Assembly (NCBI GenBank): GCA_902567765.1
Contig: CACFNI010000003.1
Span: 1 to 64,000 of the forward strand
Direction of reading: 5' to 3'
DNA: 64,000 nt
From: an uncultured Pelagibacteraceae bacterium
GTDB lineage: Bacteria; Pseudomonadota; Alphaproteobacteria; Pelagibacterales; Pelagibacteraceae
A program made the position numbers and the translations under genes. Under the pieces are notes generated by a model. The model was not told the DNA's origin, did not search any database, and saw only the letters and a program-made list of their open reading frames with translations. Each line of letters opens with the position of its first letter. Position 1 is the first letter of the stretch. This document shows positions 1,170 to 61,192 of the stretch, in pieces.

Positions 1170-2897
1170 TTATTTGTTTAATTGAAACCCCTTGGTGAAA
1201 CTTAATGAGTAAGAATCAGCAATATAGTCATAATTCATTATATTGGCTTCAGATATTATTTTCTCATAAGCTAAGTTTATAAACAAATTTTTGTTTGGAT
1301 CTAAAATTGGTATAAAATCACCAAGGGCTTTAGTAACTGAAATATCCATAGTATTTGTATAATCAGATCTTATAATATTTGAGACCACGCTTGTATCTTG
1401 ATGAATATAATCATTAAAACTTAAGGCGTCCCCGATAGAAATATATGCCCAAGGAAATGCAAGGTTTAATCTTAAACTAAAATCATAGGTGTGAAAATCA
1501 TTAGATCCAACTTTTGCTTCTGAAATACTGTAACCTAGCCCTGTTGAAGTTGATGCTATATCATTAATCATATAATCATGTCCGATAGAAACACTGTGGC
1601 CTATCGCATTCGTTTCATCTGCAGTTGTGTCATTCATGTTTCTGTTGTTTTTCGAGTCTGACAAAGAGTAGCCGTAACTAAATGAATGTTGATCATCTTC
1701 ACCTGCGGAAAAAAATCCACCAATACCTACCATTGTTGCAAAATTATCAGCATCATCGCCATTATCAGTTTTACTTAAAGATAATGATGGGCTGATACTT
1801 TGATTTCCAATCGTTGTATCAAAAGCAAATGAAAGACTATAACTATCAAAATCATCTGTAGTATCAGTTACTTGCCTTGAATCTGCAAAACCAGCATTAA
1901 TCATAAAAGAAGATGCCTCTCCAACACGTCTTAGTGCAGTTACACCGATATTACTATTGTAAGTTCTGTCGTGCATTGCAGTGTTAAATGGAACAATTTC
2001 ATCTGAACTAACTTGCAATCTATTCTTTGAAACACTATTAACGTTGTTATTTTGTATAAAACCTGCGCCTAAGTCTGCAAAAAAGTTCCATAACTTAGGA
2101 GCTTTTCTAGCTTTCATTTGTTCTTCAATATCTGCAACGGCTAGTAAATCTTCAGGAGACAAATCTTCACTAGATTTAATTTCCTCAATAATAATCAATG
2201 CTTTGTCTGGAGCGTCTGCTTGTACTAAAACAGATAATAAATATAATTTTATTTCTACATTGTCAGGATAAATCATATTCAATCTCTCTAAAGTAGCGAT
2301 TGTTTGTTTAAAGTTTCCAGCCTTACCTTGTTGCCTTGCGTATTTTAAGTTTAAATCTAAATCGTTAGGGTTTTGTAAAATTTCTATGTAAGTTATATTT
2401 TTGTCAGCAGAACCGGGAATAATTTTTTCTTCTCCATCAATTATTATTGTTTTCGTAGAGGTGTCGGCTTGGGTTAATTTTACAGCCGAAGCTACTTTAA
2501 TTTTCTCTTCTACTTTTGGAACATCAACAATTTCTTCACTAACTATTTTTGGTTTAACTTTTTTAATCTCTTTTTCAACTGGTTTTACAATAACTAATTC
2601 ATTGTCTATAGTAAAATTTTCTTCAATTAAAAAATCGTAATTTTTTGAATTTTTATCGACAATAAAATTTTTATTTATAAATTTTTCTTCAAAAATATCC
2701 GAATTTAAGTTTGGTAATTCAAAAGGTAAGTTTCTAAAGTTTTCACTTTTAGCTCCAGCAGGAACTGTTCGTACTGTTTCTGAAAATAAAGATAATAATC
2801 CAATGGCGAATAAAACAGGGAGAATTGATTGTTTTTTAGACTTATTTTCTAAAAGATAGTTTATTTTTTTTTTTCCTTTTTTTCTTACTTTTTTCAT
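1170..2897 (-). CDS. TPR + outer-membrane beta-barrel protein
   Basis: N-terminal signal/TM, TPR-like ITYIEILQNPNDLDLNLKYARQQGKAGNFKQTIATLERLNMIYPDN, C-terminal alternating beta-strand barrel; paralog of 21427-22755. Confidence 0.75.
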   Translation of the reverse strand: MKKVRKKGKKKINYLLENKSKKQSILPVLFAIGLLSLFSETVRTVPAGAKSENFRNLPFELPNLNSDIFEEKFINKNFIVDKNSKNYDFLIEENFTIDNELVIVKPVEKEIKKVKPKIVSEEIVDVPKVEEKIKVASAVKLTQADTSTKTIIIDGEEKIIPGSADKNITYIEILQNPNDLDLNLKYARQQGKAGNFKQTIATLERLNMIYPDNVEIKLYLLSVLVQADAPDKALIIIEEIKSSEDLSPEDLLAVADIEEQMKARKAPKLWNFFADLGAGFIQNNNVNSVSKNRLQVSSDEIVPFNTAMHDRTYNSNIGVTALRRVGEASSFMINAGFADSRQVTDTTDDFDSYSLSFAFDTTIGNQSISPSLSLSKTDNGDDADNFATMVGIGGFFSAGEDDQHSFSYGYSLSDSKNNRNMNDTTADETNAIGHSVSIGHDYMINDIASTSTGLGYSISEAKVGSNDFHTYDFSLRLNLAFPWAYISIGDALSFNDYIHQDTSVVSNIIRSDYTNTMDISVTKALGDFIPILDPNKNLFINLAYEKIISEANIMNYDYIADSYSLSFTKGFQLNK

Positions 2898-2922
2898 AAA
2901 ATAAAACCATCAAATTTAATTT

Positions 2923-3345
2923 TTAAAAAGCTTCTCCCCAAGTTCCATTTTGGTCTAATGTTAATTGACTTTCTCCATCTGTTGCTTTAATGAGATAGCC
3001 CCCTGAACCACTCTCTATACACATATCCCAGCCAGTTTCTGGCGTAATTATTTGTCCACCAGAAAATAATTCACTATTAATCTCTTTAGAAGTAGCACCC
3101 TCTCCATTTTTTTCGTCTATAGTGCAAGCTGCACCTCCATCAAGAGTAAAAAAATATTCTCCGAAGCTTGATAGATAATCTGATTGTCCTAAAGATATCT
3201 GTTGCATCATATTTTTTGCGCTAGTTTGTTTAGTTCCATCCACATAACCATTGTAAGCAATAAGACCAACAGACGAAAGAACTCCGATAATTGCAATAAC
3301 TACTAAAAGCTCGATCAAACTAAAACCCGAGCTTTTAGTAATCAT
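2923..3345 (-). CDS. type IV pilin-like protein
   Basis: Prepilin N-terminus SSGFSLIELLVVIAIIGVLSSVGLIAY; two C-terminal-half Cys. Confidence 0.85.
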   Translation of the reverse strand: MITKSSGFSLIELLVVIAIIGVLSSVGLIAYNGYVDGTKQTSAKNMMQQISLGQSDYLSSFGEYFFTLDGGAACTIDEKNGEGATSKEINSELFSGGQIITPETGWDMCIESGSGGYLIKATDGESQLTLDQNGTWGEAF

Positions 3346-3375
3346 AAATTTTAAATTGCTCTTAAGATCCGATAA

Positions 3376-3825
3376 CTACTCTATAGAAACGTTGTTCGTC
3401 ATCATTTTATCTGAAGCACAATCTTCTTCAAAACAAGTTGTAACTTTTATCGAACTACCTGTTTGTACGATAGCTACTTGACCTTGTTCTGGAGTACCAG
3501 AAGTTATTATTGCATCTTTAGAAGAGTCGAATGAGTTTTTAAAATCTGACAATGCACTTGCAGCTGCATCAGCTGTGTTTGTATCAGCTTTCCTTGTACT
3601 ACAATCAAGATCGCCACCCATTGCATCTGCGTCAGGATCAATTGAACATTTTGCAGTTTCTGCTGCAATATATTTTACTGCTGATGCGTGATTTGATTTT
3701 GTTGCACTTTTATTTGCACCTTCAATGTAACCTTGGTAAGCAACTGTACCAACAGCGGCAAGAATACCAATAATTGCTACTACAACTAATAATTCTATAA
3801 GAGTAAATCCTTTATTATTTTTCAT
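3376..3825 (-). CDS. type IV pilin (probable major pilin)
   Basis: Prepilin N-terminus KNNKGFTLIELLVVVAIIGILAAVGTVAYQGYIEG; Cys pairs. Confidence 0.88.
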   Translation of the reverse strand: MKNNKGFTLIELLVVVAIIGILAAVGTVAYQGYIEGANKSATKSNHASAVKYIAAETAKCSIDPDADAMGGDLDCSTRKADTNTADAAASALSDFKNSFDSSKDAIITSGTPEQGQVAIVQTGSSIKVTTCFEEDCASDKMMTNNVSIE

Positions 3826-54376: not shown

Positions 54377-55351
54377 TTATTTAAATAATTTTAAGTTATT
54401 TTTATACCAATCTATAGTAACTTCTAAGGCCTTGCCTAGAGTCCATAAAGGTTTCCACCCAAGTTCTCTATTTATTTTACTATAATTTAATTTTTGCCTT
54501 TTTATCTCTATTCTAGTGGTGTTGTCTAAAATTTTGGGTTTTAAAGCATTATTTTTAATTTTTTGAACAATAAGTTTCACAAGTTGTAAAACTGTCAGAT
54601 TTTCTTTTGATCCTAAATTATAAATGTATAGTTTCTTTTTTTTTTTAAGCATTTCTTTCATTAATAAAACATAAGCTCTAGAAACATCATCAACGTATAT
54701 ATAATCCCTAATTAACTTTCCATTAGATCTCAAAACAGACTTTTTATTTTTTAATGATGATATAATCACATGCGGCACTAATCTATTCATGTTATAATCA
54801 CCTGGTCCATAAATATTTCCAGACCTAATAATTCCTACTCTCAAACCATAAGTTTTTACATAACTTTGACATACAAGATCAGATGCTGATTTAGATACAT
54901 CATAAGGAAAATCTCCCTTTAATTGATGATCTTCAAAATATTCTTTTTCTTTCAGTTCTCCATAAGCTTTATCAGAGGAGCTATATATGAAAACTATATT
55001 CTTATTTAAATTTCTTATAGCCTCCAAAATATTAATTGTTCCATCTATATTGCATTCGAAAGTTTCTATGGGACTTTTATAAGCATCAATTACTTGAGTC
55101 ACTGCGCCAAGATGGAAAACAGTTCCAATCTTTTTATTTTTCATTAACTTAAATAATGCTTTATATTTTTTAAAGTCTCCTCTAATGACCTTCAGGTTTT
55201 TGCTTTTTAATTTAAGGGTTGAAATTTTTTTTTTGTTACTGCTCCTATCTAACAAAAATACTTTATTTTTTTTATCTAATAATAATTGTTTAATTACGGA
55301 TCTACCTAATATTCCAAAACCCCCAGTGACTAGTATATTTTTTATATTCAT
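54377..55351 (-). CDS. NAD-dependent sugar epimerase/dehydratase, possibly CDP-glucose 4,6-dehydratase (RfbG)-like
   Basis: SDR extended GGFGILG; PIETFECNIDGTINILEAIR, SSDKAYGE, YDVSKSASD, RSGNIYGPGDYNMNRLVPHVI. Confidence 0.8.
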   Translation of the reverse strand: MNIKNILVTGGFGILGRSVIKQLLLDKKNKVFLLDRSSNKKKISTLKLKSKNLKVIRGDFKKYKALFKLMKNKKIGTVFHLGAVTQVIDAYKSPIETFECNIDGTINILEAIRNLNKNIVFIYSSSDKAYGELKEKEYFEDHQLKGDFPYDVSKSASDLVCQSYVKTYGLRVGIIRSGNIYGPGDYNMNRLVPHVIISSLKNKKSVLRSNGKLIRDYIYVDDVSRAYVLLMKEMLKKKKKLYIYNLGSKENLTVLQLVKLIVQKIKNNALKPKILDNTTRIEIKRQKLNYSKINRELGWKPLWTLGKALEVTIDWYKNNLKLFK

Positions 55352-56070
55352 TAAGAAAAATAACTTGTTAAAATTGCTTTGAAAATCATACTTCCATCTT
55401 TTAAAGCCCTAAGCTTTTTTCCTTCTTTAAATGATCTTGGATAATATTCAACTTTATATTCTTTGATTAAATGACTTAGTTTAGCGAATTTGCATAATAC
55501 CTCAAATTCAAAATCAAAACCATTAGTGCTGATTTTTAATTTATCGTATATTTCTCTCTTAAAAATCTTTGTAGCACAGGCCGAATCTGAAAGGTTTATC
55601 TTGTAAAGTAAATTTATTAGCTTTGTGAGAACAATCACACCATATAAGTTTTTTTTATATATAAATCTGTTATTTTCCCCAAATCTACTACCACATAAAA
55701 AATCAATTTTTTTGTCGCTTTCAATTATTTTGTGACCTTTTATTAAATCTTCAATTAAATATTCATCTAAATCAAAAATAATAATATATTTATTAGTAGA
55801 GCTAGATATCGCTTTCTTAATAGAACCGCCCTTTCCAAGATTCTTTTCATTATATATAAATTTTAAATTCTTATGTTGTTCTAGCTCTAATTTTTTTAAA
55901 ATTTCTGTTGTTCCATCATTAGAACAGTTATCACAAAAAATTACTTCATTTTTGAAAGGGAGGTTTTTTAAAGCTTCGAGGAAAGAACCAATTTTTTTCT
56001 CTAATAATGGTTTCTCATTATAATAACAACATACTATTGAGTATGAAATTTCATCCATTAAATTTATCAA
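55351..56070 (-). CDS. family 2 glycosyltransferase
   Basis: EVIFCDNCSNDGTTEIL, NLGKGGSIKKAI, IIIFDLDEYL. Confidence 0.88.
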   Translation of the reverse strand: MINLMDEISYSIVCCYYNEKPLLEKKIGSFLEALKNLPFKNEVIFCDNCSNDGTTEILKKLELEQHKNLKFIYNEKNLGKGGSIKKAISSSTNKYIIIFDLDEYLIEDLIKGHKIIESDKKIDFLCGSRFGENNRFIYKKNLYGVIVLTKLINLLYKINLSDSACATKIFKREIYDKLKISTNGFDFEFEVLCKFAKLSHLIKEYKVEYYPRSFKEGKKLRALKDGSMIFKAILTSYFS

Positions 56071-57262
56071 TAAATTTTAAAATTAAACTATGTATAGTTT
56101 TGATATTATTTATTTTTAACCCTTGATGACATCCAATTAAAATCCCATTCTTCATAATATAATCAGCATTTTTTAAAGAATTAATTTTATTTTTTTTTGA
56201 TATTAAATAGCTAAATCCAGGATGTCTTAAAATGTTCCCACTGAAAATCGGCCTTGTTTGAACTAAATTTTTTTCAAGATAAATCTGTAACTTTTTTCTG
56301 TTAAAGTACTTATTTTCTTTGATTATAATTGGGTAGGCTAAAAAGTTTGTTGATACATTTTTTAGTAATTTTGGAGTTATGAAAAATTTTTTAAACTTTT
56401 TAAAAAAATTTAAATGCATAAAAAAATACTTATTTCTTAAAGAAGAAAACTTTCTAAATTTCTTTAATTGCTCAAGACCAAAAGAGGCGCTTATTTCTGA
56501 GGGCTCAAAGTTATAACCAATATCTTGAAAAACAAATTTTTTATCATAATCATAACCTTTAAGTTTTATATTTAATCTTTTATTTATATTTTCAGAGTCT
56601 TTAATTAAAGACGAAGCTCTACCCCAGCTTCTTAAAATTTTTGCTTGTAAATAATATTTTTTGTCATTTGTTAAAAGGATTCCTCCATTACCTGCACAGC
56701 TAATGACATGTGAACCATAAAAACTTGTTATTGAAATATCGCTATATGAACCGGTCGTTTTTGTTCCTATTTTTGCACCCATTGTGTCTGCAGAGTCCTC
56801 TATAATTTTAAGTCTATGTTTTTTTGCAATTTTTTTAATTTCGCTCCAATTTGGAATGTTTCCAATTAAGTTTGGAATTAATAAAGCTTTAGTTTTTTTT
56901 GTTATTTTTTTTTCTAATAACTTTGTATCAATTTGTAGAGTTTCTACCTCAACATCCACGAATATAGGTTTTAAATTATTCAGAACTATTGAAGATACTG
57001 CAGTACCAAAATTTAATCCTGGTGTTATAACTTCGCTATTCTTTGGTAAGTTTAAAACTTTTAGCGCTAAAATTAGTGCCGAGGTTCCTGAGTTAACCAT
57101 TAACCCATACTTTTTAGAAAAAAATTTACAAATTTTCTTTTCAAATGAACCAACATTAAAACCCATTTGTGTTGTTTTTTTTAAAGTTTTTAGAACTGCA
57201 TTTATTTCTTCATTTCCATAGATATTCTTTCCATAAGAAATGAAATTTTTTTTTATACCCAT
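56051..57262 (-). CDS. DegT/DnrJ-family PLP enzyme with Lys-to-His active-site signature (RfbH/E1-like 3-dehydrase)
   Basis: MVNSGTSALILAL, EDSADTMGAKIG, SFYGSHVISCAGNGG where the PLP-Lys position reads His (codon about 56708-56710). Confidence 0.82.
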   Translation of the reverse strand: MGIKKNFISYGKNIYGNEEINAVLKTLKKTTQMGFNVGSFEKKICKFFSKKYGLMVNSGTSALILALKVLNLPKNSEVITPGLNFGTAVSSIVLNNLKPIFVDVEVETLQIDTKLLEKKITKKTKALLIPNLIGNIPNWSEIKKIAKKHRLKIIEDSADTMGAKIGTKTTGSYSDISITSFYGSHVISCAGNGGILLTNDKKYYLQAKILRSWGRASSLIKDSENINKRLNIKLKGYDYDKKFVFQDIGYNFEPSEISASFGLEQLKKFRKFSSLRNKYFFMHLNFFKKFKKFFITPKLLKNVSTNFLAYPIIIKENKYFNRKKLQIYLEKNLVQTRPIFSGNILRHPGFSYLISKKNKINSLKNADYIMKNGILIGCHQGLKINNIKTIHSLILKFIDKFNG

Positions 57263-57945
57263 GGCGCATTACCTTTCTTAAATAAATCATTTAAGAAATT
57301 TTTATCTCTTAGAGTATCAATAGGATGCCAAAAACCTTCATGTTTAAATGCCATAAGCTCTCCATCTTTTGATAAATTCTCTAATGGTTCTCTTTCAAAA
57401 ATACAGTCTTCTTTATCGTTTATATAATTAAAAACTTTTTTATTTAATACAAAAAATCCTCCGTTAATCCAACCTTCTGACAAGAAATCTTTTTCTTTAA
57501 ATTTTATTACTTTATCGTCTTTTAATGTTATGTGGCCAAATCTTGGTATGGGTCTTACTGCAGTTAAGGTTGCAATTTTGTTATTTTTTTTATGAAAAGA
57601 TAATAATTCATTAATGTTAACATTTGAAAGTCCATCCCCATATGTCATAAAAAAATTTTCATCATCATTTATAAATTCTTTAATTTTTTTAATTCTTGCT
57701 GCAGTTTGCGTATTTAAACCAGTATCAACAACTTGAATATTTTGCTCGTTTAAAAAATATTTCTCAATATTGTCTTTTTTATATCCTGCACAAATAACAA
57801 CTTTATCAAAATTAAATTTTCTAAAATGTTTTACAATATGTGAGATTATTGGATCTTCCCCAATTTTGATCATAGGTTTTGGAAGTTGATGAGTTTCTTC
57901 CGCCAATCTCGTCCCGAAACCTCCAGCTAATATAACAACTTTCAT
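57253..57945 (-). CDS. glucose-1-phosphate cytidylyltransferase-like nucleotidyltransferase
   Basis: VVILAGGFGTRLAEETHQLPKPMIKIGEDPIISHIVKHF. Confidence 0.85.
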   Translation of the reverse strand: MKVVILAGGFGTRLAEETHQLPKPMIKIGEDPIISHIVKHFRKFNFDKVVICAGYKKDNIEKYFLNEQNIQVVDTGLNTQTAARIKKIKEFINDDENFFMTYGDGLSNVNINELLSFHKKNNKIATLTAVRPIPRFGHITLKDDKVIKFKEKDFLSEGWINGGFFVLNKKVFNYINDKEDCIFEREPLENLSKDGELMAFKHEGFWHPIDTLRDKNFLNDLFKKGNAPWV

Positions 57946-57956
57946 TTAATTTTTAT

Positions 57957-59342
57957 TTACTTAACTTTTTGTTTTATTTTTGTATATAAAAAATTTAAGC
58001 CATATCCAAAAAAAATAGAAAAAAATATCTGATTTGTGACCATATATCTCCCTGTTCCTACCCAACCAAGTGCTGCAACAAAATATAAACAAATTAATAC
58101 AACGAAAAATGCAATTTTTTTTTCAAAAGAATTACCTTTTAGTAAAATTAAAATAAATCCTATTAAAGAAATAAGATAAATAAAAAATGAATAAATGATT
58201 TTATATTTTTGATATTTGTCAAAGTCTGGCAAGGACCAATATCTCTCAACAGTTTTATCATTTAAATATTCTGATTTTACTGCATCAACTGAAAATACAA
58301 GTGCCTGAAATGATTTCCAAATATGATATTTTGCGTAGAAAAAATAATTGTCCTTTAATAGATTTAAAAAATATCTATTTTTATACTTATAAACTTTTCT
58401 TACATCTTCGTAATTGTCCAAGTTAATATTATTTTCTTTTTTCCAATCATTTAAATCTATTTGTTTTTTTTTTTCAGCTTCTTCAGCGTTAATTTTCAAT
58501 TTATTAGATATAAGTTTTGTAGCTACATAGTGCCAATGTATTGTTAGTTGATGGAATGGCATCAGATAAAAAACTTTACTTTGCTTATAGTTAGAGTAAC
58601 CCACAAAAGATAAAATGATAAAATATCCAATGAAAATATATAAAGTAGGAACAAAAATTTTATTTTTGAGATAAATCAATAAATAAAAAAGTACAGGTAA
58701 TATTAGATAAATTGAAACATTTCTTTGCATATACATTACTCCAATAAACAATCCTAAAAAAAAATAGGAGTAATTTTTTCTTTTTTCCTGAAAAAAAAAT
58801 GAGAAAAATAATAAAAGCAAACTAAGGTATAATGATTCGGTCCAATAAGATGAATGATACTGAATTATATTTGGCTCTAGTGACAAAAATAAAATGATAA
58901 ATGCTACAGTAGACTTTGATTGTAACTTATTAACTATTTTTTTATAAAATAAAAACAAGCAAAAATAATAAAAAAGTGATTGTATTAATGGTATACCAAC
59001 TTTATAGTTTTTAAGTTTATAATCTCCATCTTCATTTTTTATTTCTTCATTTATTAAAATATAATAAATTGCAATTAATCTAGGATAAAGAAATGATCTA
59101 GTATATTCTGCTCCTGACTCCGTTATTGTTTTGCCACTTTTTATATCTGATTTAAATTTATGAGCATCCTTCCAATAAGCATTTATATCTGTTCTTAAAA
59201 TGTGATGGGTTTTTCCACCGTTGCTATTTATAAAATATTTATCAAATTTAATAGTATCATAAAAAGAATTGTAAATTGAATAAACTAATCCAATTATCAA
59301 AAAAAAATAAACTAGATTTTCAGATTTTATTTTATTTTCCAT
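57957..59342 (-). CDS. Multi-TM GT-C-like membrane protein
   Basis: About 10 TM with a large hydrophilic loop; glycan-cluster context. Confidence 0.55.
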   Translation of the reverse strand: MENKIKSENLVYFFLIIGLVYSIYNSFYDTIKFDKYFINSNGGKTHHILRTDINAYWKDAHKFKSDIKSGKTITESGAEYTRSFLYPRLIAIYYILINEEIKNEDGDYKLKNYKVGIPLIQSLFYYFCLFLFYKKIVNKLQSKSTVAFIILFLSLEPNIIQYHSSYWTESLYLSLLLLFFSFFFQEKRKNYSYFFLGLFIGVMYMQRNVSIYLILPVLFYLLIYLKNKIFVPTLYIFIGYFIILSFVGYSNYKQSKVFYLMPFHQLTIHWHYVATKLISNKLKINAEEAEKKKQIDLNDWKKENNINLDNYEDVRKVYKYKNRYFLNLLKDNYFFYAKYHIWKSFQALVFSVDAVKSEYLNDKTVERYWSLPDFDKYQKYKIIYSFFIYLISLIGFILILLKGNSFEKKIAFFVVLICLYFVAALGWVGTGRYMVTNQIFFSIFFGYGLNFLYTKIKQKVK

Positions 59343-59396
59343 TTTTAAAGAATTTTAAATTTATTAAACAATTGTTTAAATTTATCTAACTATGTA

Positions 59397-59402
59397 TATA
59401 AT
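59397..59402 (+). promoter_or_regulatory. Putative -10 box of tmRNA
   Basis: TATAAT just upstream of tmRNA with TTGTTT at 59372-59377 (spacer 17-19 nt depending on register). Confidence 0.4.
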
Positions 59403-59412
59403 AGTAATGTTG

Positions 59413-59667
59413 GGTTTCCAACTATGACGATAAACGAATTTCGTAATAACCATTACGGACGTGGGGGCAGTACCCACCACCTCCACCAATTAAAACTATT
59501 GGGGGTGAATTAGGATCGACGGATGTCTAAAAGTTATTCTTTCGTTCGGTATTGTTCCGCCGAAACGGGCTAAATTATAATTGCAAATGATAAATTTGCT
59601 CTTGCTGCTTAATTAATTTATTAATTAAGTAACGGGGTTTTGGGGCACCTGGCAACAGAACGCCCCT
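59413..59667 (+). ncRNA. ssrA: Permuted two-piece transfer-messenger RNA (alpha type)
   Basis: 3' acceptor piece first, ending CACCTCC-A-CCA (59478-59488); then spacer ATTAAAACTATT; then 5' coding piece GGGGGTGAATTAGGATCGACGG (59501-). Acceptor stem GGGGGUG/CACCUCC (7 bp), T-stem GTGGG/CCCAC, P2 pairing AATAAC (59445-59450)/GTTATT (59533-59538). Tag ORF GCA AAT GAT AAA TTT GCT CTT GCT GCT TAA (59583-59612) = ANDKFALAA*. 3' end GGCACCTGGCAACAGAACGCCCC. Confidence 0.93.
59644..59667 (+). repeat. 24-bp direct repeat, copy 1 (inside tmRNA 3' end)
   Basis: GGCACCTGGCAACAGAACGCCCCT, identical to 59857-59880. Confidence 0.97.
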
Positions 59668-59683
59668 TTTGATATGAATTAAT

Positions 59684-59857
59684 ATGAAAAATTTTAACAA
59701 TAATCAGAAAATTATATTGATAGGTATTATTGCTGTCTTTTTAATGTTTGTTGTTTATAACTTTTTTTTATCACCATTTGCTCAATGTGTGTCTGGGGCA
59801 GACAAATACATGGAAAAAGAAAAAGCAAAAGTTCTGTGTGGAAAGAAAGCACAATAG
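59684..59857 (+). CDS. 57-aa membrane protein between tmRNA 3'-end repeats
   Basis: Manual translation MKNFNNNQKIILIGIIAVFLMFVVYNFFLSPFAQCVSGADKYMEKEKAKVLCGKKAQ*; one TM, two Cys; absent from the ORF track. Confidence 0.6.
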   Translation: MKNFNNNQKIILIGIIAVFLMFVVYNFFLSPFAQCVSGADKYMEKEKAKVLCGKKAQ

Positions 59858-59880
59858 GCACCTGGCAACAGAACGCCCCT
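59857..59880 (+). repeat. 24-bp direct repeat, copy 2 (tmRNA 3'-end duplicate)
   Basis: GGCACCTGGCAACAGAACGCCCCT, 213 bp downstream of copy 1; begins on the last base of the small ORF stop and ends 7 nt before the next ATG. Confidence 0.97.
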
Positions 59881-59887
59881 ATAAAAA

Positions 59888-61192
59888 ATGAATTCATTTA
59901 AAACTATTTCTGGCTGGGGAGGATATCCTAAAACAAATTCAGAGGTCATATCACCTAGAAATATTGATGAATATAAAATAAATTTAAAAAAAACATTTAT
60001 TGCTAGGGGAAAAGGTCGTAGCTATGGAGATAGCGCTAATTATAAAACTGTCCTTCAAACAAGTTTTTTAGATAAAATTATCCACTTCGATAAAATAAAT
60101 GGTTTAATAACTTGCGAAGCAGGAATTACTATTAAGAAAATCTTAGAAAATATTGTTCCAACGGGATGGTTCATACCCGTTTCACCTGGTACAAGCTTTG
60201 CTACACTTGGAGGATCCATAGCTAGTGATGTGCATGGAAAAAATCATCATAGATCAGGTTCATTTGGAGAACATGTAAAAGATATTAAAATAATGTTGGG
60301 CAATGGAAATATTGAAAATATCTCTACTGAAAATAACTCTGATTTGTTTTACGCGACATGTGGAGGAATGGGATTGACCGGCGTTATTCTCTCAGCCACT
60401 ATAAAATTAATTTCAATAAAATCATCGCAAATAATTCAAACAGAACTAAAATCGAAATCATTAGAAGACACCTGTTCAATTTTTGAAGAAAATGATAAAG
60501 CTCAATATAGTGTTGCGTGGCTTGATTGCTTTGCAGAAGAAAAATCTATTGGCAAAGGCATAATAACATTAGGTGAACACAGTGAAAAAGGAAATTTAAA
60601 TTTTAATATTAAAAGAAAAGTTAATATATCTAAAAATTTCCCTTCATTTGTTTTAAATAAGTATTCTATATCAATATTTAATAAACTTTATTATGCATAT
60701 CATAAAAATAATAGAAAAAGATTGGTGCATTTATTTGATTATTTCTATCCATTAGATAAGATTAATAATTGGAATCGACTTTATGGAAAAAATGGTTTTA
60801 TTCAATATCAGTTTGTAATCCCAAATGATCAGATAGTTAAAAATCTTAAGCTTATATTTAAAAAAATTTCTGAATTTGGAATTAACCCTTTTTTAGGTGT
60901 ATTGAAAAAATTTGGAAAACAGAACGATAATTTATTATCATTCCCGATGTCAGGATATACATTAGCCATGGATATCAAAATAGATAAAAAATTATTTAAA
61001 AGTATTGAAGAGCTTGATAAGGTTGTGGCTAACTTAGGAGGAAGAATTTATTTAACAAAAGACTCTTTGATGAAAGAAGAAATATTTAAAAATAGTTATA
61101 CAAAATGGAAACAATTCGAAAAAATTAGAGAAAAATATGGTGCTATTAATAGATTTCGTTCTGATCAATCATTAAGACTAGGTTTAAAATGA
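59888..61192 (+). CDS. DprE1-like FAD-dependent decaprenylphosphoryl-ribose oxidase
   Basis: FAD-binding GKGRSYGDSANY, PVSPGTSFATLGGSIASDVHGKNHHRSGSFGEHV; C-terminal FLGVLKKFGKQNDNLLSFPMSGYTLAMDIKI. Confidence 0.87.
   Translation: MNSFKTISGWGGYPKTNSEVISPRNIDEYKINLKKTFIARGKGRSYGDSANYKTVLQTSFLDKIIHFDKINGLITCEAGITIKKILENIVPTGWFIPVSPGTSFATLGGSIASDVHGKNHHRSGSFGEHVKDIKIMLGNGNIENISTENNSDLFYATCGGMGLTGVILSATIKLISIKSSQIIQTELKSKSLEDTCSIFEENDKAQYSVAWLDCFAEEKSIGKGIITLGEHSEKGNLNFNIKRKVNISKNFPSFVLNKYSISIFNKLYYAYHKNNRKRLVHLFDYFYPLDKINNWNRLYGKNGFIQYQFVIPNDQIVKNLKLIFKKISEFGINPFLGVLKKFGKQNDNLLSFPMSGYTLAMDIKIDKKLFKSIEELDKVVANLGGRIYLTKDSLMKEEIFKNSYTKWKQFEKIREKYGAINRFRSDQSLRLGLK

Follow-up and report, generated by a model that had tools for sequence, protein, structure and literature searches.

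A minimal integrase-free cassette at the 3' end of a permuted tmRNA gene in Pelagibacter, probably one of many mobilized in trans

The window analyzed here, a stretch of 64,000 nucleotides from an uncultured Pelagibacteraceae bacterium (contig CACFNI010000003.1), carries a permuted tmRNA gene of the alphaproteobacterial type, followed by a short open reading frame (ORF) and a second copy of the last bases of the gene (Table 1). It was noted that approximately 5 kb of glycan genes (54377-59342) lie between thyX and the tmRNA gene, while thyX directly adjoins the tmRNA gene in several relatives (L166, L168, and L282). The repeated 24-bp sequence, GGCACCTGGCAACAGAACGCCCCT, was present twice on the + strand as identical copies 213 bp apart, just as the initial annotation had described. 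These were the only copies found in the 991-kb assembly when up to three mismatches were allowed, and a reversed control pattern returned none. The Rfam consensus of RF01849 terminates in '...GGUUCGGAGgcACCuGGCAACAGAAacCucCACU', and the first copy of the repeat (core copy 1) is therefore the conserved 3' end of the tmRNA coding piece, in agreement with the initial annotation. It differs from the tRNA-like acceptor end, which is encoded first in the permuted gene. As RNA, GGGGC-ACCTGGCAACAGAAC-GCCCC is predicted to fold stably into a stem-loop in which CTG and CAG pair as an inner helix (-13 kcal/mol, z -2.8), and symmetric stem-loops of RNA genes are typical targets of tyrosine integrases.

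Table 1. Features of the tmRNA locus in the window and location of the conserved tyrosine recombinase considered in the text.
Feature	Position	Strand	Evidence
Permuted tmRNA gene; acceptor piece first, coding piece (tag ANDKFALAA) last; 3' end is the putative attachment site	59371..59669	+	Rfam RF01849, 238.9 bits; ARAGORN tmRNA
Core copy 1, 3' terminus of the tmRNA coding piece (attL-like)	59644..59667	+	Rfam consensus; single copy in other Alphaproteobacteria
Body of the 213-bp arm-less cassette	59668..59856	+	Homologous G185 cassette, same locus, 72% identical; flanking genes 97-98%
57-aa ORF, stop codon ending on base 1 of core copy 2	59684..59857	+	G185 homologue; pN/pS about 0.5
Core copy 2 (attR-like), right end of the cassette	59857..59880	+	Sequence match
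Right flank TATAAAAAATGAA, marking the right end of the array site	59880..59892	+	Identical to the flank after the last G185 core
Conserved tyrosine recombinase	G000 contig C25:2646-3596 (L198 1456-2409); L177-L204		

The ORF between the two copies, which had been described as running its stop codon into copy 2, proved to be real, and its TAG stop overlaps core copy 2 by a single base, the G. Its 57-aa product has one likely N-terminal membrane helix and two cysteines, and no Pfam family was matched above cut-off. Comparison with a homologue in the genome G185 gave a pN of 0.30 against a pS of 0.62, so the ORF probably encodes a real protein, and this ratio suggests purifying selection. It was also observed that the tiny cassette proteins of the window, L052, L164, and L165 all have one membrane helix followed by two cysteines approximately 13-25 residues apart.

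G185 was the only close relative found at the window locus, and it possesses a homologous cassette of 211 bp with intact ends. The G185 contig ends before the left end of the array is reached, and the locus was assigned by the common downstream genes, the tmRNA junction lying outside the contig. Between G185 and the window genome (G000), the downstream dprE1-like and SDR genes are 96.8% and 98.1% identical in DNA compared to 72% for the 57-aa cassette, and the history of the cassette therefore differs from that of its flanks. In G185, an 1844-bp cassette with arm repeats (ACCGCAGTT) is located between the right core of the 57-aa homologue and the flank TATAAAAAATGAA, whereas in G000 the right core joins this flank directly, exactly without the 1844-bp cassette; the two genomes are a precise occupied/empty pair at this point. 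It was additionally noted that a 312-aa gene between the array and the dprE1-like gene is kept in G185 after the TATAAAAAATGAA flank and lost from G000, by an apparent deletion involving microhomology of approximately 10 bp (AAAAAATGAA) found at two start codons (window 59881-59892 compared with positions 2643-3690 of the reverse complement of L174).

We assessed the abundance of the core among 218 Pelagibacter genomes, comprising the window's own and those at least 85% complete, mostly single-cell or metagenome assemblies. No copy was found in 8 genomes, one copy in 105, and at least two in the other 105, with a maximum of six and none for the reversed control. Among 240 genomes sampled across the Alphaproteobacteria, more than one copy was found in Pelagibacter only, and single copies outside the genus, where read, were located at the apparent tmRNA end. 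Having more than one copy is thus a trait of Pelagibacter that arose from an old tmRNA sequence. Within an array, all copies share one strand; their spacing is typically 0.1-4.6 kb, and the cargo that separates them is unrelated. Cassette cores of the G028 clade carry GGCACCGGGTAACAG, and the same variant was found in the tmRNA of G001.

The reading of the repeat as a duplicated tmRNA end was correct for the window, but the extra copies in relatives also follow other genes. Cores were encountered directly 3' of the stop codon in several genes, namely rnhA, pnp, one encoding a homocysteine S-methyltransferase, and a pair of short conserved genes. At the rnhA site, 20 of the 24 readable relatives had no core and two had a degenerate copy, while a solo core insertion of approximately 30 bp was found between rnhA and the next gene in 2 of the 24. 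Just 3' of rnhA, L242 and L245 carry a different hairpin-like insertion of approximately 31 bp (AGCGCTCGCTTGGAAAGAGCACTGCTTATAG in L245) at the position of other strains' core, possibly the core of a second system. Core copies approximately 33 kb apart in several genomes were considered as prophage ends and rejected; in G442, where they were read, they belong to two separate anchor genes.

The 95 distinct cassettes that were extracted span 124-4556 bp with unrelated cargo, and they are not all independent, with homologous groups present. We scanned 89 cargo proteins against Pfam, PADLOC, and PHROGs, and the families listed included no integrase. The nucleases and restriction proteins included a Tsp45I-type restriction enzyme and its methyltransferase, DpnI, Mrr, MrcB-like, SRA, HNH, and GIY-YIG proteins, and other cargo included proteases and endonuclease/exonuclease/phosphatase proteins, together with many ORFs for secreted or lipoprotein-like products. 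Many cassettes of 200-450 bp contained one ORF ending at the core and recurred in different arrays. Core positions 11-17 (AACAGAA) were 97-100% conserved among the non-tmRNA copies, and the left bases varied with the left-hand element, so the crossover is likely in the middle or right half of the core.

A repeated arrangement was noted inside the larger cassettes. In 26 of the 82 cassettes of at least 300 bp, a word of 6-10 bp was repeated at exactly 11 bp, one helical turn apart, with its start at +44-47 or +56-59 relative to the left core (shuffled expectation 0.12; periods of 6-10 and 12-20 gave 0-1). A third exact copy of the word was found near the right core in 21 of these 26, with 17 at -78 to -81 and four at -90 to -94. 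There were at least 11 different arm words, constant within an element and differing between elements, including TGGCACA, GGGCACA, GATCACA, TGTACGGGAT, TTCGGAAT, ACTCGTC, GGCGTC, GTCGGC, GAGTCG, and TGGCGTCA. This geometry is the layout of an attP site with predicted arm-type integrase sites. All 55 ORFs of at least 75 aa in arm cassettes were on the minus strand, pointing to the anchor gene.

Cargo and cassette ends were found in differing combinations. The TGTACGGGAT cassettes of L025, L062, L079, and L166 have similar ends (83-94%) and different cargo, while L079 and L105 share an HNH protein (95%) and its 77-aa neighbor (100% identical) in cassettes with different arm words and chassis. 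A 76-aa cassette of an rnhA array (L069) was 93% identical to its counterpart in a tmRNA array (L144). As these matches show, cargo has evidently been exchanged between cassettes and between chromosomal sites. No circular cassette was seen, nor any event of excision or integration. Separately, it was observed that unrelated cargo proteins (L061, L095, L105, L118, L144, L160, L168) carry almost identical signal peptides (MKKLLAIVVLGLLLSGNAYA-like), as though mature domains were swapped by recombination within the DNA that encodes the signal peptide.

Phage-type integrases (E<1e-6) were detected in 16 of the 218 Pelagibacter genomes, and most arrays are in genomes without one. Near the arrays, a second tyrosine recombinase was within reach of a core in G282 only. 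The order there is thyX, tmRNA, core, TGGCGTCAtggTGGCGTCA, a 330-aa integrase, a 103-aa ORF, and the start of a primase-like protein, in a single instance located at a contig end with the right end missing. The arm repeats are just before the integrase, which begins 19 bp after TGGCGTCAtggTGGCGTCA, and the start of the final ORF resembles a putative primase of another SAR11 element. Integrases at other sites (L268, L270, L275, L276) also have period-11 repeats of other words at 14-23 bp before their start codons, and the repeats are thus linked to integrases. The integrase-less L131 can be aligned with the G282 element starting at the core and continuing through AAGTGTT, to the last base ahead of the integrase ATG, beyond which the two differ. 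L168 also has the left end of the G282 element, and the right-end ORFs of L131 and L168 are 96-97% identical with different middles. These matches are direct evidence of derivatives that lost the integrase and kept the ends, the state that defines hitchers relative to an autonomous element.

Among SAR11 elements at other sites, L283, L284, and L286 were seen to have a phage-type integrase together with an AAA/DUF5906 or putative primase gene, a phage-satellite-like content. We searched 2.9 million viral contigs and found no match to the 24-mer, a degenerate 19-mer, two right-end motifs, or the G282 arm motif; neither the G282 integrase nor the putative primase of L284 had a relative there. Among isolate phages, no pelagiphage carrying the core was found, and distant integrase homologues were detected in 20 Pelagibacter phages. 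Phage carriage of the core was rejected for the viral contigs and pelagiphages searched.

Taken together, it appears probable that the tmRNA 3' end is an attB site for cassettes that hitchhike, with tyrosine integrases moving them in trans, and that the window contains a minimal arm-less one. Under this explanation, small integrative elements would recombine with the tmRNA 3' end, each bringing its own last ~24 bp as the core. Each insertion would produce a core-element-core arrangement with the tmRNA left intact, and repeated insertions would build an array. The larger elements often appear to retain an attP-like layout in which the integrase was lost and other cargo took its place. The helpers acting in trans would be phage-type tyrosine integrases of rare satellite-like elements of the G282 type, with arm repeats just upstream of the integrase gene. 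The window cassette is flanked by a direct repeat of the tmRNA 3' end with the target gene restored, as in integrative elements, and carries neither a tyrosine integrase nor the arm repeats of an attP site; arm-dependent integration therefore cannot directly explain its movement. It would represent the smallest kind, a 213-bp cassette with one membrane-protein gene ending in the core, and such arm-less cassettes may spread by co-mobilization within an array or by homologous recombination.

The attL/attR-like interpretation had been offered in the initial annotation, and the comparisons it had proposed came out in its favor. Empty sites and different cargo between repeats were found among relatives, an integrase-bearing element adjoins the 24-mer in G282, and the G185 homologue of the 57-aa protein is between repeats in a different array arrangement. 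The combination of ORF and second repeat was not carried by all relatives. Of the three origins suggested there, a minimal non-autonomous cassette is the best fit. There is no support for a landing pad that would serve glycan-gene turnover, since no distal repeat bounds these genes in G000 or G185 and arrays are present in several relatives without adjacent glycan genes; a repeat-bounded glycan block was rejected for the same two genomes. The other suggestion, by which copy 2 is a degenerate scar of a larger excised or deleted island and the 57-aa ORF its residue, draws on the microhomology deletion of an array-adjacent gene in G000, so that decay does occur at the window locus. However, the intact ends of the 211-bp cassette in G185, the recurrence of many one-ORF cassettes of 200-450 bp ending at a core, and the apparent purifying selection on the ORF render this origin improbable. 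It is even harder to credit that the second repeat is a functional terminator hairpin duplicated, or copied along with genes, by ordinary homologous recombination without site-specific integration. The core is a stable hairpin followed by T and directly follows the stop codons of rnhA, pnp, and other genes, as a terminator might, but the arm geometry, the integrase-bearing relative, the precise insertions with one core per junction, and the solo ~30-bp insertions between convergent genes are all left unpredicted. Copy 2 in the window also has no GGGG stem arm and no T run, and would therefore be a poor terminator.

The main rival catalyst, mostly for arm-less cassettes, is a conserved 317-aa tyrosine recombinase, which could have built the arrays on arm-less cores in an integron- or Xer-like manner with phage-type integrases being incidental. 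The protein is present in every Pelagibacter genome checked, is the sole tyrosine recombinase in most of 28, array genomes included, and might use arm-less cassettes of the window's kind as substrates; its identity to the version in the sister genus is 53%, and its scores are far below the XerC/XerD cut-offs. Its action would leave unexplained the precisely placed, element-specific arm repeats and the match between L131 and G282, no core was reported near its gene, and a chromosome-dimer resolvase is the simpler reading of a conserved single-copy recombinase, so we regard this account as unlikely. The conserved recombinase, approximately 304-334 aa and usually the only one, was observed to adjoin a small methyltransferase-like (ATL/ogt) gene, and it may be the SAR11 chromosome-dimer resolvase.

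Mobilization of tmRNA-end cassettes in trans, the reading preferred here, was compared with known systems. Williams 2003, 'Traffic at the tmRNA gene', is said to describe elements integrated at ssrA, including one at the 3' end of a permuted cyanobacterial ssrA. The ssrA elements resemble the Pelagibacter cassettes in using the tmRNA 3' end as attB, restored by the core of the element, and in occurring as arrays; however, they are kilobase-scale, integrase-bearing islands or prophages, while the Pelagibacter cassettes are mostly 0.2-4.6 kb without an integrase. Integron cassettes and CALINs are similar as tandem, same-orientation cassettes of one or few genes between recombination sites, in arrays that lack the integrase. 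Integron attC sites measure 57-141 bp and have R/L boxes. They differ in that the Pelagibacter site is a 24-bp tmRNA end with attP-like arms, the arm-cassette ORFs face the anchor gene, and no integron integrase was found, the only candidate being the 317-aa recombinase at 31.9 bits against the TIGR02249 cut-off of 265. MITE-like hitchers and CIMEs, terms drawn in part from PMC11389934, keep recombination ends, lack a recombinase, and are moved in trans. Unlike these, Pelagibacter ends of different specificity have one core, one target, and exchanged cargo.

Within the open-paper literature, the nearest published pattern is the additive flexible genomic island fGI-2 of 'Ca. Methylopumilus', whose direct repeats are the last 20 bp of tRNA-Lys (PMC10872708). 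Both have RNA-gene-end repeats in varying number, a streamlined pelagic host, and variable content, in fGI-2 from 330 bp upward and of mostly unknown proteins (PMC10872708). The fGI-2 site is a tRNA, whereas the Pelagibacter site is the non-tRNA-like end of a permuted tmRNA, and the passages on fGI-2 make no mention of the arm repeats, integrase-bearing counterpart, or protein-gene-end copies seen in Pelagibacter (PMC10872708). Tycheposons of Prochlorococcus (cited in PMC10872708) are described as 4-200 kb with their own recombinase. They and marine virion-associated satellites are similarly tyrosine-integrase elements at RNA genes of streamlined marine bacteria, and the integrase element of G282, which is followed by a likely primase gene, is satellite-like. 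The Pelagibacter cassettes, at 0.12-4.6 kb and recombinase-less, fall outside the tycheposon definition of 4-200 kb with a tyrosine recombinase. No account of a Pelagibacter tmRNA cassette system was found in the open-paper literature. We consider it an even chance that an undescribed, Pelagibacter population-wide cassette system exists as an integron-like reservoir without an integron integrase, combining integrase-free cassettes with a tmRNA-end core, interchangeable arm 'addresses' that recruit different helper integrases, cargo (restriction systems included) swapped between chassis, and secondary arrays that began where the 3' ends of rnhA, pnp, and other genes had received a core.

SAR11 bacteria are among the most abundant organisms on Earth and have streamlined genomes. 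To our knowledge, few mobile elements have been described from them, and gene turnover at the strain level proceeds without a clear mechanism. The element-specific arms on one core would offer a natural data set for the evolution of integrase arm specificity and for the choice of helper by hitchers. A fixed-site cassette system in about half of the genomes, with restriction and secreted-protein genes, would supply a mechanism for gene turnover in SAR11.
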